From positions 1 to 24,787 of the IMG/VR virus record IMGVR_UViG_3300031578_000313: 24,787 nt of DNA; one strand, given 5' to 3'. The notes under the pieces were generated by a model. It saw nothing but the letters and a program-made list of their open reading frames with translations. It made no database searches and had not been told where the DNA came from. This document shows, one piece after another, positions 2,798 to 18,789 of this stretch. This stretch comes from a virus. Position numbers and translations under genes: made by a program. How positions within the stretch are numbered: position 1 is the first letter of the stretch; each line of letters opens with the position of its first letter.

Positions 2798-3262
2798 TTA
2801 TAACTCCTTTATATATGAAGTCTCGAACTTCCTAAATCCAATTTTCTCATAGAACCGGCATAGGCGGTCGTGCATATCCGATGCCAAACAGCTTGCGTTA
2901 AAAATTATATGACTGCAACCGTGTTGTTTCGCCCATTGCCTGGCCGCCCTAATCAAGAGCATAGTGCCGTGCCCCCTTTTATTATCCGACACAAACCAAT
3001 AATGTTCTTCTGCTATCCTTTGATTACCGAGTGGACTGTCAAAGCTAAAGATTCCCATATAGCCCACCACTTTGTTTCTTTTCATTAAGAGTAACAAATC
3101 TGCATCGTCCTTCTCAATCAAACCGGCCAAATCCGAATAATGTATTTGAGGAACCAGCTCTATCCCAAAGCCCTCTCCCTTACATTCTTCTTTCCATTTC
3201 AAAGCTAATAGCTTTAACTCTTCAATATCATCAATTACATTTGTGGCCTTACGAACTTTCAT
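2798..3262 (-). CDS. GNAT-family N-acetyltransferase
   Basis: 154 residues from the ATG at 3260-3262, preceded by AAAGGA; a TTG at 3292 would give 164 residues but has no SD. The acetyl-CoA pyrophosphate-binding signature of the GNAT fold is clear: NKRGHGTMLL at about 94-103 (R/Q-x-x-G-x-G/A), preceded by the beta-4 strand HYWFVSD, and followed by a C-terminal FYEKIGF strand (137-143) typical of motif B. Length is normal for a single-domain GNAT. It overlaps the F5/8C-like gene by 14 bases and is followed after one base by the first ejection protein, so it is co-expressed with virion genes. Phage GNATs at this position are known, but the substrate (virion protein, host protein or small molecule) cannot be told from the sequence. 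Confidence 0.88.
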   Translation of the reverse strand: MKVRKATNVIDDIEELKLLALKWKEECKGEGFGIELVPQIHYSDLAGLIEKDDADLLLLMKRNKVVGYMGIFSFDSPLGNQRIAEEHYWFVSDNKRGHGTMLLIRAARQWAKQHGCSHIIFNASCLASDMHDRLCRFYEKIGFRKFETSYIKEL

Positions 3263-4052
3263 TTTTCCTTTGGAGTTGCTCATATCTATCAACGTCTGTT
3301 GTCATTGCGAACAGGGTCTGTATATCTTGATAATGCTGGTCTAAAATCTTCTTTATGGCCCTGCCCATGTCCTTTTCAGGTATCCTGGGGACAGCCCTGC
3401 TCACCATTCCGGCCAGCTCACTCTCCGACCTGAGCGGCCCTGTAGTATAGACCGACCCTACCCCGTGAAGAGTCGCTGTCATCGCCAAAGTAGCAGGTGT
3501 AACTGTTATATAGTCAACTACTACCGTAGGAGCGTGCAGAGTAGCTGTCATAGCTAAAGTGGCAGGTTTGACTGTTACATCCTGCGTTGCTTCCCCGTAA
3601 ACATCGAAGATAGGGTAGTAATCTGGGTAGGAATATAATCCAAAGTTAAGATGATTCCATGAAGCATCCTCAGTGTCAATTATCTCAACTTTTACAAATC
3701 GCCCACTTTTATCTGTAGTATCGACCTCTACCCAAGCGTAATCGCTTTTATCTTGCCAAGTGCTAATTCCAGAAGCTACTGCGGCTCCCCAAGCTTCAAT
3801 ATTATCAGAAACATATATATTTAAGTCAATGGGGTCATCACTTGAATATGAACGGCCTCTCACTTTCTGGACATTATAAGTCTGCCCTAAGTCAACTATG
3901 AAAAAATGTGTATGGGTAGTATAACATTCCCAAAGATTCGTTCCACCAAGGGCACCAGCCACCTGGCCAGCTGCTTCTTCATAGCAAAAAGCGACACCAG
4001 CCCCACCAGCCATCAAATGAGAACTGTTTATCCCTAACCAATCAGCGGCCAT
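3249..4052 (-). CDS. F5/8C (discoidin)-like virion protein with duplicated C-terminal repeat
   Basis: 267 residues, ATG at 4050-4052 with GGGAGA upstream. Residues ~15-155 look like an F5/8 type C/discoidin (CBM32-like) jelly-roll: FFIVDLGQTYNVQKVR (50-65), a strand with NIYVSDN (78-84), then GRFVKVEI (117-124) and the closing FDVYGEA strand (149-155). Such folds bind carbohydrates, and in a phage tail locus they suggest a receptor-binding or virion-decorating role. Two tandem 23-residue repeats follow, each with PATLAMTATLH (163-173 and 186-196). The C-terminus is a charged helical tail (RIPEKDMGRAIKKILDQHYQ). It overlaps the GNAT gene. The domain call is from pattern recognition only. Confidence 0.82.
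   Translation of the reverse strand: MAADWLGINSSHLMAGGAGVAFCYEEAAGQVAGALGGTNLWECYTTHTHFFIVDLGQTYNVQKVRGRSYSSDDPIDLNIYVSDNIEAWGAAVASGISTWQDKSDYAWVEVDTTDKSGRFVKVEIIDTEDASWNHLNFGLYSYPDYYPIFDVYGEATQDVTVKPATLAMTATLHAPTVVVDYITVTPATLAMTATLHGVGSVYTTGPLRSESELAGMVSRAVPRIPEKDMGRAIKKILDQHYQDIQTLFAMTTDVDRYEQLQRKNESS
3465..3602 (-). repeat. Tandem 69-bp imperfect repeat coding PATLAMTATLH units
   Basis: Two in-frame units of 69 bases (3465-3533 and 3534-3602) encode the 23-residue repeats of the F5/8C-like protein. The PATLAMTATLH core is identical in protein but differs at several synonymous positions in DNA, pointing to an old duplication kept by selection on the peptide rather than a recent slip. Confidence 0.8.
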
Positions 4053-4712: not shown

Positions 4713-6400
4713 TACACTTCCCCTTCTAATTGAGGTTCTATCAACTCATAATTTGAATATTGGAAATCGTCACCGTCCGCATTAGTGAGCCTGAACTGTA
4801 TTTTCTTTGAAGTAACCCATATAGTGAACTCGTATGTAACGAACTCGCTCGTAAGGACTTGTTCGGCGAAGGCCGTCCAGCCGGTAGATGTCGTCTCGAA
4901 ACTGGCCGTTCTGTAGGATACGACAATCCCAGTACCCTTAGCCGTTACTCTTATACCCGGCCAGAGCTTATTCTTTGAAGGAACTTCGAGGTCATAGACT
5001 TCGGTGATGTGCCTCGCCGGAACAGCAACTGTGTCGTCTGTGGTTAAATCCGAATCGAATTGATAGACGTATCCCGCCGAGTCGCCCAATACCAGACTTT
5101 CATCCGTTAATTCTTCCTGTAGAATCTGGCGATAAGTCGTGCCCGCAGTAACGGCAGCGGCGTAAGTGGTAGTTAAGGTTTGGGCCTCTCGATAAGAAGC
5201 ACCGGCGAAATAGCTCGAAGCCCCTATCAAGGAAACCGAAGTAATCCCCCCCGTTGTCGTAGGCCACTTATGAAGGAAGTCCCGCTTCATCCATGACCCG
5301 GTTTTTATATCAACACCATAGCCCTGGGTAATGTACTCTTCGCCGTTCGGTACTATGTAAATCCAGAGTCGTGAATTTTCAGCACCCATATAAATCCAGC
5401 AGCGGTTCTTAAAAACGGGGTCAAGGTCTCTCTGAAGGTAATGCTGAATGTTCTTACCTATCATCTCGATATTTGAACCGCCCCCGTAAGCGTAGATGTT
5501 ATAGTCATTTCCTACAAAGTAATGGACGTTGTTCTTCGAGTAGAGAAGGTGGGCGGCCAAAAGACCCAAATTCGGCAACTCAATATCAAGCTCGAAGACC
5601 CTCGTGCCTCCTACATGAGTCAATGACCATATAGAGTTGTTCTGATATTGAATCCACTGAGCGCCTAACAGGGCTCCCCAGATATTATGCCCACCGGCAT
5701 CTAAAAGGTCTCTATAACCTGAACCCGTCCCCTTCCAGGTTTCGAGCTTACCGGCCATCGGCCAGCGAATGCGCTGGTTACAATCTATTAGATTTCCGTT
5801 GGCGTCCGCCTCTTTTGCACTTATGAGTATAGGCCGGTTATAAAACGCACCCACCTGTAAGGCGTAATGCTTGGTAATACCACTATCGACGTGATGGTAG
5901 CCGTCCGCTCCCACAAGGTCGGCGAAGTACGTCTCGTATTTACCCGCCCATCTCTGAATAGGAGAAATTCCCGTATTGACAAGGCAGTGATGATACCAGT
6001 CGTCACCCGTCCCGTTAAGGGCAATGCCGTCCGTATGAAGGATTGCCACCATACCCATTGGGTTGTGGATATTGCCCTGCAAGGCCACGCCGGATTGTGT
6101 AATATCGTCCCACTCGCCATTTACATAGTCCCGCTTAAAAATCTTGTCCTTCGTTACAGCCAAGAAATGCTGGGTCTTGTCAAGCTCGGTATAGCTACCT
6201 AATAAGAGGATGGCATTGCCACTATCAAGCGGCAAAGAGTCTGCTTCTACCTGACTAAAGCCATAAGGCGTCTTAACAGTACCTCTCGAATACAAGACGT
6301 TCTGGGAGCCGTCCGCCGCCGAACCTCTCAGTAACTCGGTGGCATCCCGTTTGGTCGCGTCAAAGCCCCGGTCAACTTGTTTTGTTAAAATATCTGGCAT
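4712..6400 (-). CDS. Tail hub / DNA-stabilisation protein (P22 gp10-like beta-propeller)
   Basis: 562 residues, ATG at 6398-6400 overlapping the upstream stop by one base (TAATG). The sequence is a succession of beta-strand blades with aromatic-Gly turns, e.g. LLGAQWIQYQNNSIWSLTHV, YFVGNDYNIYAYGGGSN, RLWIYIVPNGEEY, and a GVDIKTGSWMKRDF blade, followed by a C-terminal beta domain from ~residue 465. This layout and the N-terminal part (DILTKQVDRGFDATKRDATELLRG) resemble the gp10-type tail-hub proteins of short-tailed phages, which plug the tail below the adaptor and keep packaged DNA in. P22 gp10 itself is slightly shorter. Its place two genes after the adaptor supports this. Homology search would settle the family. 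Confidence 0.8.
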   Translation of the reverse strand: MPDILTKQVDRGFDATKRDATELLRGSAADGSQNVLYSRGTVKTPYGFSQVEADSLPLDSGNAILLLGSYTELDKTQHFLAVTKDKIFKRDYVNGEWDDITQSGVALQGNIHNPMGMVAILHTDGIALNGTGDDWYHHCLVNTGISPIQRWAGKYETYFADLVGADGYHHVDSGITKHYALQVGAFYNRPILISAKEADANGNLIDCNQRIRWPMAGKLETWKGTGSGYRDLLDAGGHNIWGALLGAQWIQYQNNSIWSLTHVGGTRVFELDIELPNLGLLAAHLLYSKNNVHYFVGNDYNIYAYGGGSNIEMIGKNIQHYLQRDLDPVFKNRCWIYMGAENSRLWIYIVPNGEEYITQGYGVDIKTGSWMKRDFLHKWPTTTGGITSVSLIGASSYFAGASYREAQTLTTTYAAAVTAGTTYRQILQEELTDESLVLGDSAGYVYQFDSDLTTDDTVAVPARHITEVYDLEVPSKNKLWPGIRVTAKGTGIVVSYRTASFETTSTGWTAFAEQVLTSEFVTYEFTIWVTSKKIQFRLTNADGDDFQYSNYELIEPQLEGEV

Positions 6401-7458
6401 TATAATATATAATCAATCTTAATTCTGTAAATCTGTCCTTGGAAGTTAGCTCCCACACTGGCAAATACTACATTTGTATCATTAAAGCTGACAGATATTG
6501 AATTGTCTGCTGAGGAAGCAGCATAAGATTCAAAAACCTGAGCACCTCCACCACTATTCTTCATCGCCACAGAACAAGCCAAGATTTTTGTTGCTCCTGA
6601 TGTTACACTATGAGCTACAGATGTAGAGGCATCAGCATCAAGTGTTCCGGTAAAAAACTTTGTAAACACTGCGGTTCCAGTACCATTAACAGTAGGATAA
6701 CCATGAGCTTTTCCGAACGCTTTAATACTTTGCTGACTTGCCACTTTAGTAGCAGAATCCGAATCCATCGCATCTTCGTCAAGAAAACCGCCGTTAGTCG
6801 TTTCGTAACTCGTAGGGTCGATATTGCCGGTAACGTCAAGTGTGCCGCCCACAGTGCCCGTACCGCCAATAACAGTGTTTCCGGTAGCCCCTGCTACGGT
6901 AAACTTATTGGTGTTAATCGTAATATCGGAAGTGGATGAGCCGATTAAATCGTCATCTGCTCCGAGATTGACATGGTTGTTAAATGTGCTCTCCCCTGTT
7001 ACTGCAAGAGTACCGGCAAATGTGCGATTGGACGCTAATAGTACCGCAATTATTTCAGTTGATATTGGTGTCCACGTTGGAGTAGTTGCCGTTAGGACGT
7101 TAAACTGGTTATCCGGGTCAGCATTTGAATCAAACCACAAAGACCCTAAATCGCCGGAATCGAAAGCATCTCCGTTTACCTGTGTAGTCGGCTCAGCGTC
7201 TTGAAAGAAAGCCCTGGCCGAACCCTGCTTATGCACTCCGCCCGCCGAGCTGGTAGCAAGTGTTTCGTGCTCCTTGTTTATACGCGCAGCCACACCTTTT
7301 CTAAGGTCGTAAATCTCCTTGTAGGCGTTGCCGTGGGGCTGGTCGATGTCAGGTGATGCAACGTCCCACTTGGTTCCGTCCCAGGGGTCATGGGTTCCCG
7401 CAAAGCACAAAACAACACAAAGCAGAATCGTAATAATCACAATCGTTTTTTTAACCAT
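6400..7458 (-). CDS. Tail-fibre-like protein with N-terminal signal-type segment
   Basis: 352 residues from ATG 7456-7458, chosen because GAGGAG lies 7 bases upstream; a TTG further up has no SD. Residues 1-20 form a textbook signal-like sequence (MVKK then a run of I/L/V/C, ending FAG before THDPW), with no lipobox. After a charged linker with coiled-coil character (about 45-70) comes a fibre-like region of Thr/Ser/Gly-rich beta repeats (NRTFAGTLAVTGESTFNNHV, TNKFTVAGATGNTVIGGTGT) of the kind found in phage side fibres, then DSDSATKVASQQSIKAF, a common fibre neck motif, and a beta C-terminal domain. It overlaps the adaptor gene by 8 bases. The signal-like start is unusual for a virion protein assembled in the cytoplasm. 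Confidence 0.83.
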   Translation of the reverse strand: MVKKTIVIITILLCVVLCFAGTHDPWDGTKWDVASPDIDQPHGNAYKEIYDLRKGVAARINKEHETLATSSAGGVHKQGSARAFFQDAEPTTQVNGDAFDSGDLGSLWFDSNADPDNQFNVLTATTPTWTPISTEIIAVLLASNRTFAGTLAVTGESTFNNHVNLGADDDLIGSSTSDITINTNKFTVAGATGNTVIGGTGTVGGTLDVTGNIDPTSYETTNGGFLDEDAMDSDSATKVASQQSIKAFGKAHGYPTVNGTGTAVFTKFFTGTLDADASTSVAHSVTSGATKILACSVAMKNSGGGAQVFESYAASSADNSISVSFNDTNVVFASVGANFQGQIYRIKIDYIL

Positions 7459-8362
7459 TGTAAAGCTCCTCAAATATCATTTCCTGGTAGTCTTGAAATT
7501 CCTCAAGCCACTTATCGAATAGCACCCTCGTCTTTAAGGCCTTGGACTCGAACCTCGGCTGACCTAAAGCCAGCTCATCGTATATCTCGGCTAAAGAGAA
7601 TAGAATCAGTCCCTTATCCGCGCCGGTTATCACCGAGGCCACCTCATCATTAGCCAAGTCGGTCGCCCAGTCGGTATAGTCAATTCTCAAATTCAATCCC
7701 TGGTAGTCTCTCTCTATCGGGCAGTTGAAAATTATGTTATCACCCTGCCTTGTGTACTCGATGGGTTCTGACGGTGACTCCTCAGAGACGGGTTCGTACT
7801 TGTTCCTGAACTCATTAAGAGGTCGGTACTTTAAGCCCGCCTGACGGGTACTGGCACCGTTGAGAATCCAAATCCCTCCTATGTGGGCGGGGTCGAGTGT
7901 GCTAATGTCGTAGGTGGGCTTGGCGGCAAGTTTGGTAATAGTCCCGACAGTAGATGCTGTTTCGTCTGCAAGATTAGAGAAGTAGGTAACATGAGTAGTG
8001 TCGGCAACGGACAGTATCTCGAAGTTGCCGTTGAAACTCGTATCAGTCCCGGACGTACCCGCAACAGTTGCTATATCACCTACCTCAAGGTCGTGGACAG
8101 TTGCGGACGTAATCGTAACAACGCCCGTGGCCGCCCTGACAGCGGTAGAGATAACGTGTGCGGTTGTCGCCCATCTATCTAATCGGTATGTGGTACTATC
8201 GGATTTATCAAGGCCAATGATTCTCGGAGTCTTGCGGACGATATGGAGTTGGGCTTCGAGCAGGGTATCTAAGACAAAATCTTCCGTAATAAGAACCGAG
8301 TCGTTATTTCGACCCGACCGCAACCGTATAGTGTCGATTAACTCCGCTCCCGTTTTTGCCAT
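7451..8362 (-). CDS. Head-tail adaptor (gp4-like) with beta insertion domain
   Basis: 303 residues, ATG at 8360-8362 with GGGAGAG upstream. The helical N-terminus (AKTGAELIDTIRLRSGRNND..LITEDFVLDTLLEAQLHIVRK) and helical C-terminus (DKGLILFSLAEIYDELALGQ, then a basic/acidic helix) match the adaptor architecture of short-tailed phages. The middle (about residues 70-145) is a beta insertion with HDLEVGDIATVAGTSGTDTS, FNGNFEILSVADTTHVTYFS and TVGTITKL, a small barrel-like domain recurrent in phage proteins. The adaptor ring binds the portal and the tail hub. Position between the capsid region and the fibre/hub genes agrees. The insertion makes it longer than P22 gp4. Confidence 0.78.
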   Translation of the reverse strand: MAKTGAELIDTIRLRSGRNNDSVLITEDFVLDTLLEAQLHIVRKTPRIIGLDKSDSTTYRLDRWATTAHVISTAVRAATGVVTITSATVHDLEVGDIATVAGTSGTDTSFNGNFEILSVADTTHVTYFSNLADETASTVGTITKLAAKPTYDISTLDPAHIGGIWILNGASTRQAGLKYRPLNEFRNKYEPVSEESPSEPIEYTRQGDNIIFNCPIERDYQGLNLRIDYTDWATDLANDEVASVITGADKGLILFSLAEIYDELALGQPRFESKALKTRVLFDKWLEEFQDYQEMIFEELYNG

Positions 8363-8382: not shown

Positions 8383-9669
8383 TCATTTCTGTGTTATTGT
8401 GCATTTATTGAGATTCACCAGTTTTACGCTCATCCCGCAATATGGACATCTTGTTATCCTGGAAATAGTCATTACGGCAAAGTAAAAGTTTTTACAGCAG
8501 GGACAACACCATTTTCGGTCGCCTTCCTCTTGTTTCAAATGGATACCTTCATCTTGATACCTTGCATCTTTCGGCCATTGGTCGGGGATATGGGTCTTGA
8601 TTTTTAGGTCTTTGATGTAGTTGTGAATATGGTCTGCCGCCCGCTCACAAGCCCTGCCGTCAATCTTGCCGTAAAGATGTTCCTGCAACTGGTTAAAAAC
8701 GTCTTGGTTGATATTATGTTGCTGTATATCAACAGTTCTCAAGAATTGTTCAAGCTCCCCGCAAGTCTCAACCTTCGGACAGACCGAAGCCAGTAGTTCA
8801 TCGGGATTGATATTGTGAAAATTAACCGATGGTATTTTCAAAAGATGTGCCTCGATAGCCATTGTAGAGCCGCTATGAACAAGAATATCCGCACAACGTA
8901 AAGCATCAATCGCCGGATAGCTTTCGGGATAAATCTTAACTGTACCATCGAATGCCCCCCTATATTCATCTATCCTTTCGCCTGGCCGGACTTTTAATTC
9001 AAAACTAAACTCTTTTTTGGGGAGATTTTGTTTCAGTTTTCTTATTGCGTCAATCCACAAATCCCTTCCTTCTCTGTGTCTTTTGTATAGAACATTCTGA
9101 TATTCGGAACCATCCGGCAAACCGCATTCCACGAGGTTGGGCATACCATCCGCACAAGACCAGCCGGTTGCGAAAAGAACTGTTTTATAGATTGTCCAAT
9201 TCACCGCACGCCAATATTGCGGTTGGAAATACAGGTCGAACGCAAACGCCCCACAGACTTTCAACTTATCTTCCGGCATCTTGCCGTGTTCAACCAGAAT
9301 ATCCTTGAACTCCTGACCCCATACCAACTCCAAATCAACGTATGGAGAATAGTCTTCCAAGCCAATAGTTATTATCTGCCTGTCTTTGTCCATCTTGGCA
9401 AGTGATTCTCTGCTTGCGCCAGCTTCGCCACGCCGAACAATGTTGATACAGCCCCATTCCCTGCTATATTTCATAAAATTGAGTTTGTAGTCAGCACCAG
9501 CCATAGGATATATAATCACATCCGGTTTTAGATATGTTACAGATTGAGTGGCGGCACTTGCGTAATTGTGGACATAGACTTCGTGGCCCTTGGACCGCAG
9601 AAAGTCCGCTATACGCTTGTCAACGAGATTGTCTCTCTGTCCAGTCAGTGAAAAGAATACTATTATCAT
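8383..9669 (-). CDS. GT-B-like glycosyltransferase / surface-carbohydrate protein with C-terminal zinc ribbon
   Basis: 428 residues, ATG at 9667-9669 in an ATGA overlap with the upstream gene, SD AGAAGAAGGAG. Two Rossmann-like halves are visible: residues 1-150 (VFFSLTGQRDNLVDKRIADF, DVIIYPMAGADYK) and ~160-330 (KTVLFATGW, FELKVRPGER, DALRCADILVHSGSTMAIEA 255-274, LLKIPSVNF). The HSGSTMAIEA..LLKIPSV block is the donor-site signature of GT-B folds, as in CDP-glycerol or surface-polysaccharide transferases. The last ~45 residues add a zinc ribbon: CCPCC (388-392) and CPYC (408-411). Donor and acceptor are unknown. It is the last gene of the MTase-rSAM-Cys cassette. A non-transferase relative such as a UDP-sugar epimerase fold is the main alternative. 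Confidence 0.78.
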   Translation of the reverse strand: MIIVFFSLTGQRDNLVDKRIADFLRSKGHEVYVHNYASAATQSVTYLKPDVIIYPMAGADYKLNFMKYSREWGCINIVRRGEAGASRESLAKMDKDRQIITIGLEDYSPYVDLELVWGQEFKDILVEHGKMPEDKLKVCGAFAFDLYFQPQYWRAVNWTIYKTVLFATGWSCADGMPNLVECGLPDGSEYQNVLYKRHREGRDLWIDAIRKLKQNLPKKEFSFELKVRPGERIDEYRGAFDGTVKIYPESYPAIDALRCADILVHSGSTMAIEAHLLKIPSVNFHNINPDELLASVCPKVETCGELEQFLRTVDIQQHNINQDVFNQLQEHLYGKIDGRACERAADHIHNYIKDLKIKTHIPDQWPKDARYQDEGIHLKQEEGDRKWCCPCCKNFYFAVMTISRITRCPYCGMSVKLVNLNKCTITQK

Positions 9670-9854
9670 TTTGTTACTCCTTCTTCTATTTTTTTCAATT
9701 CTTTCTCTTTTAAGAGCTTTTTATAAGCACAATGAAAACACAGTCCATAACAAGGGTCATTCGGAACTAATATCTCAGCCTTATTTATACACTTAGAGAA
9801 TTGGTATCCCCCATTAGGTAGAATTATTTCTTCTTCGAAACTACATTGAATCAT
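9666..9854 (-). CDS. 62-aa Cys-rich, probable metal-binding protein
   Basis: 62 residues, ATG at 9852-9854, overlapping the radical SAM stop (ATGA), SD AGAAGAAGGAG at 9862-9872. Cysteines at 4, 22, 35, 39 and 42 plus H41 give C..C..CxxxCHC, which looks like a zinc or Fe-S binding knuckle followed by a basic/acidic helix (AYKKLLKEKELKKIEEG). It lies between the radical SAM and the glycosyltransferase genes with overlaps on both sides, so it must be co-translated with them. It could be a partner or metal carrier of one of the enzymes, or an unrelated small zinc protein like others in this genome. The family is not recognised. Confidence 0.78.
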   Translation of the reverse strand: MIQCSFEEEIILPNGGYQFSKCINKAEILVPNDPCYGLCFHCAYKKLLKEKELKKIEEGVTK

Positions 9855-10918
9855 TTCAATACTCCTTCTTCTGTAATTCCTGCAAGTTTGGGTTCCCCGC
9901 CTCTCGTGCGCCAGTCGCCCTCAAGGGGATTTTCTCCGTTATAAAAGTGTGTGCCGGGAAACGGCTGAAATCTATAATTACCCGAAATTACCAGTTTGCC
10001 CTTGTTCCTCTCAATAAACTCGCCCGTTAAGTTTCTGTCCTCAATCCTTTCGCCGGGCGTGTAATTCATAATGGAGCAGCAGACCGGCAAATCCGTCCGA
10101 TTGCATATATCAATACATCTTTGATGGTCTTCAATGGTCTCTTGTTTATTAAGGATTTTTAACATTCTATTACTACCCGACTCGGCACCAAAACGAACAG
10201 ACCTAAAACCCATACCTTTCATCCTTTTGGCAATGTCCATATTCATACGATTCGACCGGACAAAACCATGTAGCTTGAACCTCTTATTCAGTCTTTTAGC
10301 CATCCATAAACGGTATATTTCGTTGAACCTGCCTATATTGACTATGAACAAATCGTCCATTATGTAGAGCAGTATCGAGCTGGGATAAACCTTGTCGATG
10401 AAATCGACCTCATCAATAAAGTATTCCGCCGAATGAAACCTTGCCTTGCCCCAGTAGTTTTGAGATGAACAAAAATAACAATGCCAGGGACAGCCCCGGC
10501 TTGAAAGAATGGGAACATTAAGTCCGCATTTGCCCCTGTATGGAAAACACAAGGTGTCAAGATTGGGTATGTTCGTCATCCGCATAATTCTATCTGTGGC
10601 CTTACCGTCTAAAATCTGTTGAAGTGCTTCCTCGCCTTCACCAATAACGATATGCTTAAACGGATAATCCCTTAATCCTTCCCACATTGTACCCTGTCCG
10701 CCGATAATTACGGGAATGTCCGTATTCATTACAATATCCACCGCTTCCATCAGACCGCCTGCGGTAGAGCTCAGGCCGATTAAATCGCAGTCTTTCAGAT
10801 CATCTCTGCTTTTGACTATGGTTATATCGCCGCAACAGTTCGACTTCAAATAACCGAGTCCCAATGGAAACTCGCTTATAGGCTCTTCACCGCCACAAAG
10901 ATAGAGCTTAACCTTCAC
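9851..10918 (-). CDS. Radical SAM enzyme with degenerate B12-binding-like N-terminal domain
   Basis: I prefer the GTG start at 10916-10918 (SD GAGAGG 8 bases upstream), giving 355 residues; an ATG at 10969 would overlap the methyltransferase by 62 bases and has no usable spacing. Residues 1-105 look like the cobalamin-binding-type Rossmann domain found in this superfamily (VKLYLCGGEEP, CDLIGLSSTAGG, VIIGGQGTMW, VIGEGEEALQQIL) but I see no DxHxxG. The 4Fe-4S site is C143-x3-C147-x2-C150 (SSRGCPWHCYFCSS), followed by a TIM-barrel-like region with FRSVRFGAESGSNRML. It starts inside the methyltransferase 3' end and overlaps the Cys-rich gene by 4 bases. The family performs methylations, rearrangements and C-S/C-C chemistry; the substrate is unknown here. 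Confidence 0.86.
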   Translation of the reverse strand: MKVKLYLCGGEEPISEFPLGLGYLKSNCCGDITIVKSRDDLKDCDLIGLSSTAGGLMEAVDIVMNTDIPVIIGGQGTMWEGLRDYPFKHIVIGEGEEALQQILDGKATDRIMRMTNIPNLDTLCFPYRGKCGLNVPILSSRGCPWHCYFCSSQNYWGKARFHSAEYFIDEVDFIDKVYPSSILLYIMDDLFIVNIGRFNEIYRLWMAKRLNKRFKLHGFVRSNRMNMDIAKRMKGMGFRSVRFGAESGSNRMLKILNKQETIEDHQRCIDICNRTDLPVCCSIMNYTPGERIEDRNLTGEFIERNKGKLVISGNYRFQPFPGTHFYNGENPLEGDWRTRGGEPKLAGITEEGVLK

Positions 10919-11594
10919 TAATCGGTCCTCTCTTTCCGTAAAACAACGGGGCGTAAGTAATAAAGCCATCTCCTCTTATTGGCCGCACATCGGTTACTTG
11001 TTCGACAAAGTATCTATTACCCTCTATGTCCTGACAGATACGCTCATAGTTCCTTAATAAGCGCCAGGAAAAATCGGGGCAGGATTCTATCAACTGATTC
11101 AACCACCAGCCGGGACTCTTGACCGTAATGTGAAGCGGTGGTTTTCCGCTACACGCTATCTTTACGAGAATACCATGACTTATCCTTCCCATTTCTCTTA
11201 AAACATCAGATACTTTATCCTCCGGCAAATGCTCCATAACGTCAAAACTCAGACAATAATCAAACTCGTTATCCCCGAAAGGATAGGGAAATTCAGTCAA
11301 GTCGTGTTTGATAAATCTGTATTTAGACCTGTCGTAGATGCCTTCGCATCCGGCAACATCAACTCCTGTAACGTCTAAATTCATGCCCGACAATAAATCA
11401 CATAGCTTGCCGTTCCCGCAACCGAGCTCAAGAATAGAAATAGGTTTATCCGTCCAGGGATTATGAGATTCGCCCCTTTTATCCCTAATCAAATGGAGCC
11501 ATTCGCACATCACTTTTACGGCCTGGTTGACATCCCTGTAGCTGGGACGAGAATAGTGCATCGTTCGATAAAAACTTTCCTGCTTACTTAACAT
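10908..11594 (-). CDS. Class I SAM-dependent methyltransferase
   Basis: 228 residues from ATG 11592-11594 with SD AGGAG 5 bases upstream (AGGAGAAGAAATG); the longer GTG frame has none. Motif I is ISILELGCGNGKLCDLL (about 52-68), the acidic second strand is LDVTGVDVAGC (73-83), and the post-motif FDYCLSFDVMEHLPED (111-126) is the classical strand-4 signature of Methyltransf_11/23-type enzymes. The C-terminal 90 residues form a variable substrate part with paired Trp (SPGWWLNQLIES). It is the first gene of the four-gene enzyme cassette and overlaps the radical SAM gene by 11 bases. It lacks N6-adenine or C5-cytosine DNA methylase motifs, so a small molecule, sugar or protein target is more likely than DNA. 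Confidence 0.88.
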   Translation of the reverse strand: MLSKQESFYRTMHYSRPSYRDVNQAVKVMCEWLHLIRDKRGESHNPWTDKPISILELGCGNGKLCDLLSGMNLDVTGVDVAGCEGIYDRSKYRFIKHDLTEFPYPFGDNEFDYCLSFDVMEHLPEDKVSDVLREMGRISHGILVKIACSGKPPLHITVKSPGWWLNQLIESCPDFSWRLLRNYERICQDIEGNRYFVEQVTDVRPIRGDGFITYAPLFYGKRGPISEG

Positions 11595-11604
11595 TTCTTC
11601 TCCT

Positions 11605-11647
11605 AAAAATCTCCTACCGAGGCAGAGTCTAAGCTCCACCCCGGTAG
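11605..11647 (-). promoter_or_regulatory. Stem-loop ahead of the enzyme cassette (possible attenuator)
   Basis: On the transcript, CTACCGGGG (11639-11647) can pair with CCTCGGTAG (11614-11622), nine pairs with one G-U, and GAG/CTC can extend the stem inside the loop. A T5 run (11605-11609) follows four bases later, and the SD of the methyltransferase comes right after. It could be a weak terminator, attenuator or RNA-processing site setting lower cassette expression than capsid genes. Confidence 0.4.
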
Positions 11648-11659
11648 AAGAAGAAGCAT

Positions 11660-11962
11660 TTAGTATCCGAATAGTTGATAATCAATGGTATCAGGTGAAT
11701 CACCCGCAGCCGTTCCCGTTGCAAGGGAAATGGGTCCGCGTCTGGTGAATGTGACCTGACCATTCGTAGGTGCGCCAATAGTTGCTACAGCGGTTATGCC
11801 GTCCTTGAGCATACAACCGTGTCCGTGCAAGACCTTTTTGAGCTTAGTTGCTATCGTGAAGGTCTGACCGGATGCACTTGCTATGGAAACAGCGTTACCG
11901 ATTTCCATACGAACACCGGCTAAAGTTACCATCTTTTGAATTTTGTTATCAAAAGCTGCCAT
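11660..11962 (-). CDS. Small virion-type protein (100 aa)
   Basis: 100 residues, ATG at 11960-11962 with GGAGG 9 bases upstream. The protein has a helical start (DNKIQKMVTLAGVRMEIGNA), a beta-rich middle with AVSIASASGQTFTIATKLKKV and a Gly/Thr-rich end (TGTAAGDSPDTIDYQLFGY). No named family is recognised. It follows the 189-aa protein by 40 bases and belongs to the capsid-downstream set; small beta proteins here are often head-completion or decoration factors. That role is an inference from order only. Confidence 0.78.
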   Translation of the reverse strand: MAAFDNKIQKMVTLAGVRMEIGNAVSIASASGQTFTIATKLKKVLHGHGCMLKDGITAVATIGAPTNGQVTFTRRGPISLATGTAAGDSPDTIDYQLFGY

Positions 11963-12002: not shown

Positions 12003-12572
12003 TTACCCTGTGGTGTCGGCGGCCAGAGCAAATGCCGAACACAGTCCCAAACCATTCGAGCCGGTATTCGCATCCACAAGTGTAAATGTGAGCAGCGAGC
12101 TCGCAGCAACAAGCTGCATACCCTGACAGGCCGCAACAGAACCCGAAGTAGTATATACCCCGTCAAGACCTGAAATGGTATCCACAGGACAAACACCACC
12201 GCACCAGAACCAGCCATAGTAGGCATCGGTACAAGTGCCAAGTGCAATGCAGATTGGCCCGATATTGGTTGTCGTGGAATCGCCTGTATTGGTGACGTTG
12301 TACCACGCTCCGGCAGTAGCGACATCCGTAATATACGGCGCGCAAATACTCTTTACCGCAGCCACGGCAGCAGAACCCTTTTGGAACCGCAGATAAATCA
12401 AGGTTGACCAGCCGTGGTTTGTGTCGTCATAAACCAAGCGCTTTGTTCCAACCGCAAAAGCTGCCGTTGCAGCATAGGTCGTCCAGCTTGAAGGGTTCGG
12501 GCCATTCGTAGGCTCACCCGGCCAGTTGTCGATCAGGTAAAATTTCCCGTCATCTAATCTGTTAGCTGTCAT
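12003..12572 (-). CDS. Putative capsid-associated protein (189 aa)
   Basis: 189 residues, ATG at 12570-12572 with AAGGAG 9 bases upstream, the SD starting only a few bases after a terminator hairpin. The sequence is rich in beta-forming and small residues (TTYAATAAFAVGTKRLVYDD, HGWSTLIYLRFQKGSAAVAA, ASSLLTFTLVDANTGSNGLG) with several Cys (ICAP, CIALGTC, WFWCGGVCP) and no enzyme motifs. This protein type commonly follows the major capsid gene in environmental phages and is probably a virion surface or decoration protein. Direct evidence for that is absent. The Cys pairs might be structural. Confidence 0.8.
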   Translation of the reverse strand: MTANRLDDGKFYLIDNWPGEPTNGPNPSSWTTYAATAAFAVGTKRLVYDDTNHGWSTLIYLRFQKGSAAVAAVKSICAPYITDVATAGAWYNVTNTGDSTTTNIGPICIALGTCTDAYYGWFWCGGVCPVDTISGLDGVYTTSGSVAACQGMQLVAASSLLTFTLVDANTGSNGLGLCSAFALAADTTG

Positions 12573-12589: not shown

Positions 12590-12612
12590 AAAAAAGGCCG
12601 GTTTTTCCGGCC
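12590..12612 (-). terminator. Intrinsic terminator after the major capsid gene
   Basis: On the minus-strand transcript GGCCGG-AAAAA-CCGGCC (12596-12612) is a perfect 6-bp GC stem followed by six T (12590-12595). It sits between the capsid protein stop (12665) and the SD of the next gene, so it should make capsid mRNA more abundant than downstream messages, with partial read-through feeding the rest of the operon. Confidence 0.88.
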
Positions 12613-12664: not shown

Positions 12665-13741
12665 TTACGGGGTCACTAATTCGTAATAAAGCTGGCTACT
12701 TGGATGCCAGCAGACAAGGTTGCCCTTGAACAGAATCCGGGCCAACTTCATATCCGTGCCTCCGACAAGTTTCTTCTGGTCGAAGAACTCAGTCATCTTG
12801 AAAGCGGAGTCCGGATGGATGTAGAAGTCCCAGTCCTTGAGGTTAAGGCCGTAAACTCTGCATTCGAGAGCCTGTGCCGCTGCGGTCGTCTCGCCCATTG
12901 CCGTATTGTTGGCAGTCTTGAGGAACGGGTCCTTGATTATCCTGCGACTATCGAGAACCATTTCCTTGAAGCCCTGCCGGGCGGTACGATTGTCCTCGAT
13001 TTTATAAGGCATTGACCTGGCCTCGGCCTCAGCTTGCAAGCTCAGCCAGAGCGTCCCGCCGAGTATGGTAACAAGGTCGGTATTGTCGCTCTCCAAGTCC
13101 TCAAGGGGCTCGAACCACGTCCGCATCTGCGAGATACTGATTGCCACAGAAGTCGCCTGGACAGCCGAAGTGATTACTCCGCCCATCGGCTGAAAATAGA
13201 AGCCGGCATCGGCACTCGTACCTGCACTATACGTCCTGGTAATCGTCCCGTATGTGGAATCGACCTCAAGAGCATTGTTCAAACCCTGCATGTACTTATT
13301 TGTGTCTGAACTTGCTTTGGTCTGGCTCATTGCCATATACAACTTTTTCCGCAAGTGGATACGCATACCCTCGTTACACTTCTTGACGCGGTATTTAGCC
13401 AGGTTTTGAAGTTGCGTACCGTCCTTTGTTTGACGGGCGTTTTCCATTTCCTCGTCAACATCAATCTGGATGGGAAGCTGTATCTTCTTTTTGCGGAAAT
13501 AAGCGGTCTGGGTCGTGTCCTTGACGCCGTGCGTTAAGGTATCATTGACTGTGTAGTCTTGCGCGAGGTCTTCGTGCGTCCCGGTGTCCAAATTCTTGTA
13601 GTAACGAGCACCTCCGCTGAACTTCATATTCTTGCGCTCCAAAAGGAGTGCAAGAATCGGGTTCTTTTTCATGTACTCTGTCTCCCACGTGGCATCGTGC
13701 AAATCACGTGTGAGATTGTCTAAATCTTGGTGAAATGACAT
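12665..13741 (-). CDS. Major capsid protein
   Basis: 358 residues, ATG at 13739-13741 with AAGGAG and 7 bases spacing. Assignment rests on position (directly after a scaffold-like gene, terminator right after it), size, and composition: an N-terminal helical arm, a basic strand TAYFRKKKIQLPIQIDVDEE, the long helix region MENARQTKDGTQLQNLAKYRVK, and a C-terminal part with RQGFKEMVLDSRRIIKDPFL and LKDWDFYIHPDSAFKM, the Arg-x-Gly-Phe..D and W-x-F-Y-I..P arrangement of HK97-fold capsid proteins of environmental phages. It forms the icosahedral shell around the scaffold and portal. No protease domain is fused. Search against HK97-fold profiles would confirm it. Confidence 0.85.
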   Translation of the reverse strand: MSFHQDLDNLTRDLHDATWETEYMKKNPILALLLERKNMKFSGGARYYKNLDTGTHEDLAQDYTVNDTLTHGVKDTTQTAYFRKKKIQLPIQIDVDEEMENARQTKDGTQLQNLAKYRVKKCNEGMRIHLRKKLYMAMSQTKASSDTNKYMQGLNNALEVDSTYGTITRTYSAGTSADAGFYFQPMGGVITSAVQATSVAISISQMRTWFEPLEDLESDNTDLVTILGGTLWLSLQAEAEARSMPYKIEDNRTARQGFKEMVLDSRRIIKDPFLKTANNTAMGETTAAAQALECRVYGLNLKDWDFYIHPDSAFKMTEFFDQKKLVGGTDMKLARILFKGNLVCWHPSSQLYYELVTP

Positions 13742-18369: not shown

Positions 18370-18789
18370 TTATGGATTAGAGGCTGGTGTCATAATAACG
18401 AAATTCGTGCCATCATAGCACAACGGTACTATCTGGGCTGCGTCTATATGACCATCGGCAGGGTCGGCACCTAATACAGTCTTCAAAGACTTCGCGCCGA
18501 GAGAATTTATATTAAGCGTGCAGGCCCCTGTGTTGTCGGTTACGGGATTGAGCCATATCACCATTCCTGCATTGTAAGAGGTAATCCCCTCTATTGTGGC
18601 AAGGTAGGTATCATTCGCGGCTGTATCCACGGCGTAATTGAAAGCCTTACTTATCGCTACCGTTCCCTGGTCGTAAGCAATCCCACCGGAGACCGCCCGC
18701 CAGAACGCAGGGCCGTATCTCGACCGAGCACCCATTACAAACAACAAAAGGCTAACCAGTAATACGGTTATCAGTGTTTTAGCCTTCAT
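18370..18789 (-). CDS. Fibre-type domain protein with signal-peptide-like N-terminus
   Basis: 139 residues, ATG at 18787-18789 in a 4-base overlap with the upstream gene. Residues 1-20 (MKAKTLITVLLVSLLLFVMG) are a typical signal or anchor sequence without a Cys lipobox. The rest is a compact beta domain common in phage fibre and virion proteins: ISKAFNYAVDTAANDTYLAT, GMVIWLNPVTDNTGACTLNI, LGAKSLKTVLGADPADGHID, and a closing CYDGTNFVIMTPASN. The NTGACTLNINxLGAK..YDGTNF pattern is recurrent in phage fibre-like proteins. The combination with an export signal is unexpected in a virion operon and may mark an inner-membrane or periplasmic role. Confidence 0.8.
   Translation of the reverse strand: MKAKTLITVLLVSLLLFVMGARSRYGPAFWRAVSGGIAYDQGTVAISKAFNYAVDTAANDTYLATIEGITSYNAGMVIWLNPVTDNTGACTLNINSLGAKSLKTVLGADPADGHIDAAQIVPLCYDGTNFVIMTPASNP

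Follow-up and report, generated by a model that had tools for sequence, protein, structure and literature searches.

A methyltransferase and glycosyltransferase-like gene pair with variable radical SAM partners in the late operon of an uncultured tailed-phage lineage: a candidate glycan-tailoring cassette

The stretch of DNA analysed here (the window) is the entire 24.8-kb IMG/VR virus record IMGVR_UViG_3300031578_000313 (24,787 nt), which is indicated to derive from a tailed phage by profile matches to head protein, portal and terminase. The initial annotation had described four overlapping genes within its virion operon, and these were confirmed at that place, all on the minus strand and with overlaps of 11, 4 and 4 bases (Table 1). 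They encode a methyltransferase (MT), a radical SAM protein, a Cys-rich protein and a GT-B glycosyltransferase-like protein (GT). The last two overlaps (radical SAM/Cys-rich and Cys-rich/GT) are ATGA, and a Shine-Dalgarno-like sequence was found at each start (AGGAG for MT, GAGAGG for the radical SAM gene, and AAGGAG for both the Cys-rich gene and GT).

Table 1. Features of the cassette and its surroundings in the window
Feature	Position	Strand	Remarks
g10	7451..8362	-	conserved downstream neighbour; no named adaptor family match
GT-B glycosyltransferase-like protein (GT), 428 aa	8383..9669	-	constant member; GT-B domain ~residues 5-353
GT C-terminal zinc ribbon (C389, C392, C408, C411)	8437..8505	-	CxxC...CxxC
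Cys-rich protein, 62 aa	9666..9854	-	ATGA overlaps at both ends
Radical SAM protein, 355 aa, truncated B12-binding-like N-terminus	9851..10918	-	optional member; GTG start backed by homologues
4Fe-4S motif of radical SAM (C143-x3-C147-x2-C150)	10492-10469	-	
Class I SAM-dependent methyltransferase (MT), 228 aa	10908..11594	-	constant member
18-pair hairpin followed by TTTTT	11610..11651	-	between g15 and MT; terminator-like
g15, small conserved late-operon protein	11660..11962	-	upstream neighbour; no family match; candidate acceptor
g16, small conserved late-operon protein	12003..12572	-	upstream neighbour; no family match; candidate acceptor
Major head protein	12665..13741	-	phrog_9953, 8e-9; defines the phage lineage; candidate acceptor

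None of 50,697 isolated-phage records matched the head protein of the window, and the window terminase reached 24-28% identity at most among the matches listed; the lineage is therefore called uncultured, as far as the data searched go. Its host is perhaps planctomycete-like, a guess prompted by the signal-peptide-like N-termini of some late-operon proteins (see below). Related contigs were collected by scanning IMG/VR with the head protein, MT, radical SAM protein and GT. Patterns derived from an alignment of GT proteins recovered seven loci in viral contigs, and patterns built from a single GT protein recovered no relative there. Among the isolated-phage records, no relative of GT, the head protein or the Cys-rich protein was found, and MT and the radical SAM protein gave remote matches only; a search of genome contigs with the window radical SAM protein likewise returned only matches of 23-27% identity. 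The B12-radical SAM gene of Streptomyces phage SF3 adjoins thymidylate kinase and NUDIX genes and not glycan genes.

Gene maps of the IMG/VR contigs covered the site in seven distinct phages, the window included; contigs L006 and L017 are fragments of one phage that closely resembles L007, and L004 and L009 stop short of the site and are uninformative on its content. MT and GT occupy the same position between g15 and g10 in all seven phages, and no empty site was seen, both genes being present in every contig that reaches it. The cobalamin-type radical SAM gene is present in four of the seven: the window (MT-radical SAM-Cys-GT), L003 (MT-radical SAM-GT, with two antisense HNH-like ORFs inserted), L005 (MT-radical SAM-GT, with GT cut by the contig end) and L013 (MT-radical SAM-GT-second radical SAM, the contig beginning at MT). 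A second, SPASM-like radical SAM gene is present in three, namely L013 and the MT-GT-second radical SAM arrangements of L007 and L008, and L018 carries MT and GT only. The fixed unit is the MT-GT pair, not the four-gene set. The earlier view of the four genes as a complete small pathway was thus not supported, the radical SAM gene being optional or replaced and the Cys-rich gene private to the window.

The antisense ORFs of L003 (L003:14426-15046 and L003:12041-12556, both on the minus strand) were read from the sequence as HNH-endonuclease-like, and the second of them precedes MT; the two suggest that homing elements target the cassette site. A 222-aa ORF between the radical SAM gene and GT of L003 was rejected as a cassette member, because its opposite strand carries an HNH-like ORF.

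Pairwise protein identities among the relatives are 34-71% for MT, 70-76% for the radical SAM protein and 44-65% for GT, and the proteins can be aligned end to end. For most pairs, synonymous sites approach saturation, and because the proteins are conserved nonetheless, the three genes are judged to be under purifying selection. These data bear on the improbable reading that the cassette is a loose set of morons, with unrelated roles and a shared, tolerated insertion site. The varying radical SAM and Cys-rich members would suit such a set, as would a site that accepts insertions like those in L003, but MT and GT are constant across seven phages and conserved against near-saturated synonymous sites, and the genes of the window overlap, each with its own ribosome-binding site. 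This reading is already weakened. In the closest pair, the window and L003, the head proteins are 90% identical, whereas the GTs are only 52% identical. Identity at fourfold sites is 0.37 for g16 to GT, compared with 0.59 for the head and scaffold genes (p 4e-6); the same comparison with g10 and g9 gave only p 0.05, and that with TerL gave no difference. It is only suggestive, then, that the g16-to-GT block recombined as a unit and has had a separate history in these two phages.

The cassette had been placed between two small virion genes and a head-tail adaptor; the small conserved genes g15 and g16 do lie upstream, but the name given to g10 comes from its position only. The hairpin between g15 and MT has a minimum free energy of -33.3 kcal/mol (z -5.0). 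A hairpin is found 3′ of the g15 stop codon in every contig covering this junction (L003, L005, L006, L007, L008 and L018), with z-scores of -3.0 to -4.9 in the relatives, at the same position and with different stem sequences; most have a U-rich tail, and that of L008 is without a U-run. Ahead of the cassette, the element probably works as a partial terminator or as an attenuator; in the former case, the enzymes would be made in smaller amounts than the proteins encoded before it. A further terminator-like site, a perfect 6-bp GC stem with a U-run, lies just 3′ of the head protein gene (window 12596-12612, minus strand), and was seen less clearly in L005 and L007.

The assignment of MT to the class I methyltransferases was upheld by matches to Methyltransf_25 (43.8 bits, cut-off 27) and Methyltransf_11 (41.1 bits, gathering score 21.2), which characterize it as a generic member of the class. 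Its neighbour can be placed firmly in the radical SAM superfamily, as had been proposed, by a PF04055 score of 57.7 bits against a gathering score of 29.5, and C143, C147 and C150 of the CxxxCxxC motif are invariant in four homologues. The cobalamin-domain-like N-terminus stood in part: it is B12-like, but under the Pfam cut-off (20.7 versus 32.1 bits), and it resembles the profiles of B12-binding radical SAM families with scores far under their cut-offs. A structure model (pLDDT 48) gave TsrM, MgmA and OxsB as best fold matches at low TM, and is too poor to serve as more than a hint. The window enzyme resembles the cobalamin-dependent radical SAM enzymes (TsrM, MgmA, OxsB and the PhpK family) in its cysteine motif, its B12-like N-terminus and its best, though weak, structural and profile matches, and differs from them in that its B12 domain is short and its model of low confidence.

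No homologue of the Cys-rich protein was found in the relatives' contigs or the isolated-phage records, and it is present in one of the seven phages, the window; the ORF is marked as a gene only by its start site and by the overlaps that couple it to its neighbours. Its C-terminus (EEGVTK) is close to that of the radical SAM protein (EEGVLK), and both genes end in an identical AAGGAG-ATGA junction, through duplication of which the Cys-rich gene may have been added.

For GT, the proposed GT-B fold and surface-glycan transferase signatures were borne out by a structure model (pTM 0.67), Foldseek and family profiles. GT matches NF046086, the BFO_1060 family, to which we take GtfS of Tannerella forsythia to belong, over profile positions 4-365 of 365 (98.1 bits, E 5.4e-28), which is under the curated cut-off (98 versus 200 bits); four full-length phage GT relatives score 76-99 bits. 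The match to TIGR04396 (surface carbohydrate biosynthesis) covers nearly the whole domain at 82.7 bits (E 3e-23), below the cut-off of 125. By these profiles, GT is a remote relative of the BFO_1060/TIGR04396 surface-glycan transferases. Foldseek matches of the model were to UDP-GlcNAc 2-epimerase, capsule polymerases and teichoic acid polymerases. With the epimerases on top, PseG also matched and the His of an active-site motif replaced by Arg (see below), the protein might instead be a nucleotide-sugar 2-epimerase or a hydrolase-like GT-B enzyme, and the cassette product a modified nucleotide sugar or small molecule. There is little to recommend this: the TM-scores to the epimerases are only ~0.5 at 12-15% identity, which is typical between GT-B enzymes generally, the families matched over the full domain are transferases, and no epimerase profile in Pfam or NCBIfam matched up to E 1.

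Searching 395 genomes of one phylum and 396 of a second gave four cellular matches to GT. The best two (E 2e-68 and 1.5e-54) lie inside nonulosonic-acid clusters with PseB, PseC/LegC-like, NeuB/PseI-like and WbuX proteins. The zinc ribbon that had been noted as GT's own was found in six of six phage GTs, and is absent from all four cellular relatives aligned. In bacterial sialyltransferases, a His-Pro motif is described as having an important part in catalysis and in the binding of CMP-sugars, and the T. forsythia nonulosonate transferases have it too (PMC6388019). The motif is retained in the four aligned cellular relatives, and is Arg-Pro (R228-P229) in all six phage GTs. Since the Arg-Pro swap and the added ribbon are common to them, the phage GTs are considered a distinct offshoot. 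Because of the His-to-Arg change, the phage GTs may use a donor other than a CMP-nonulosonate or have a different activity, so a CMP-nonulosonate donor should be regarded as a lead and not as a finding.

The gene cluster in which the characterized T. forsythia transferase GtfS works encodes glycan methyltransferases as well (PMC6388019; PMC6120980). The phage cassette is like the T. forsythia nonulosonate transferases GtfS and TFUB4_00887 in its GT-B domain, in having a methyltransferase in the same kind of cluster, and in matching the same profile families as cellular relatives from nonulosonate clusters. Unlike them, the phage GT falls under the family cut-offs, has Arg for the His of the motif and bears the extra ribbon, and its cassette lies in a late operon without donor-synthesis genes.

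The second radical SAM protein (L007, L008 and L013) has as its nearest solved structure by profile BtrN, an aminocyclitol dehydrogenase (PDB match, 1.6e-12). It is alike over the radical SAM core, but the match is limited to residues 12-124; judged by eye, the C-terminal cysteines resemble those of SPASM proteins, no SPASM profile in Pfam matched the copies from this lineage, and the gene is absent from the window. Its wider family includes 54 other viral loci, which reduce to 19 distinct ones in unrelated viral contigs. Sugar-nucleotide or glycosyltransferase genes, as judged with a narrow query set, lie near eight of these 19. In large-phage glycan clusters (e.g., L033 and L066), a related SPASM-like radical SAM gene lies beside sugar-nucleotide and glycosyltransferase genes; these clusters differ in being big, multi-gene and without a relative of the window's GT-MT pair. 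In a further unrelated phage contig (L071:3-2702), a capsule-type glycosyltransferase fragment, a B12-type radical SAM gene and a SPASM radical SAM gene are adjacent, upstream of a probable terminase gene. It is chiefly on such independent associations of radical SAM and glycan genes that a shared glycan chemistry of the cassette enzymes is based.

A glycan target, already favoured by the initial annotation, remains favoured. The reading we put first, with confidence just short of even, is that the cassette is a phage module for glycan transfer and tailoring, most likely acting on a particle protein from its own operon. The cassette would be expressed late, behind the partial terminator, and GT would transfer a sugar, probably acidic and nonulosonate-like or of another surface type, onto its acceptor. 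No sugar-nucleotide synthesis genes were noticed on inspection elsewhere in the relatives' contigs, so that the nucleotide donor would come from the host. MT would O-methylate the sugar (or its acceptor), and the cobalamin-type radical SAM enzyme would add a C-methyl group or a similar radical modification to the same glycan, in a presumed order of steps. Relatives would replace or supplement the C-methyl step with the SPASM-like enzyme; L018 has neither radical SAM gene, and these steps are therefore dispensable. The head protein, g15 or g16 would most likely be the acceptor, giving the virion a coat of modified sugars; what ties the product to the particle is gene position alone. A fuller version is rather doubtful: the virion glycan would be tailored by interchangeable radical SAM enzymes (cobalamin-type C-methylation or SPASM-type oxidation) after transfer by a ribbon-bearing GT with an altered donor site, and their swapping would diversify the sugar coat.

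The main rival is that the same chemistry modifies the surface of the infected host (lipopolysaccharide, capsule or S-layer), with superinfection exclusion or the release of progeny from receptors among the possible benefits. The relatives of GT in surface-polysaccharide and protein O-glycan families and clusters agree with it, and such a role was proposed for the glycosyltransferases of pelagimyophages, in which the host-recognition region of the genome also contains radical SAM genes (PMC7029224). However, the cassette has a constant place in the late operon, with g10 on one side and the same small late genes on the other in all relatives, no membrane, flippase or integrase gene was noticed in the contigs inspected, and late expression in a lytic-looking phage would leave little time for superinfection exclusion. 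Host-surface modification is considered unlikely, and less likely than virion decoration. A role in DNA hypermodification, with the enzymes making a methylated or glycosylated base in the phage genome, is very improbable: DNA-modifying phage glycosyltransferases are known from work cited in PMC12619734, but PF00303 (thymidylate synthase/hydroxymethylase) was found in none of six incomplete records, as against 9 of 14 control genomes, and the cassette belongs to the virion operon rather than to the replication genes.

Under the preferred reading of virion decoration, the nearest precedent is found in mycobacteriophages (Che8 and relatives; Freeman et al. 2023), whose own glycosyltransferases glycosylate virions, as cited in PMC11256854 and PMC12619734. 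Phage-encoded glycosyltransferases are common to both. By these citing accounts, a capsid or tail protein acceptor was shown in the mycobacteriophages, whereas here, in another phage group where MT and optional radical SAM genes share the GT site, the acceptors are candidates from genes alone. Phage virion glycosylation has been documented in few systems, and literature searches, in agreement with the earlier remark, found no described phage system of this exact composition and no description of radical SAM chemistry on virus glycans. On the best reading, the cassette would be a form of phage-encoded glycosylation, its glycan chemistry being deduced from the genes. Its constant MT-GT core and swappable radical SAM partners make a small, defined enzyme set with a directly testable acceptor, and point to an offshoot of the nonulosonate transferases with a changed active-site motif.

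Several other features of the late operons were observed. A second small SAM-methyltransferase-like protein, recognized by eye and without a Pfam or NCBIfam match, is encoded in L008 (L008:18871-19485), and a GNAT acetyltransferase gene lies among the late genes of the window (2798-3292) and in the relative contig 39149_000003. Late-operon proteins of the window (6400-7458 and 18370-18789) have signal-peptide-like hydrophobic N-termini, as do a beta-helix protein (L003:504-2699) and a LamG protein with a weak dockerin match (L009:1365-2981), which hints at exported phage proteins.
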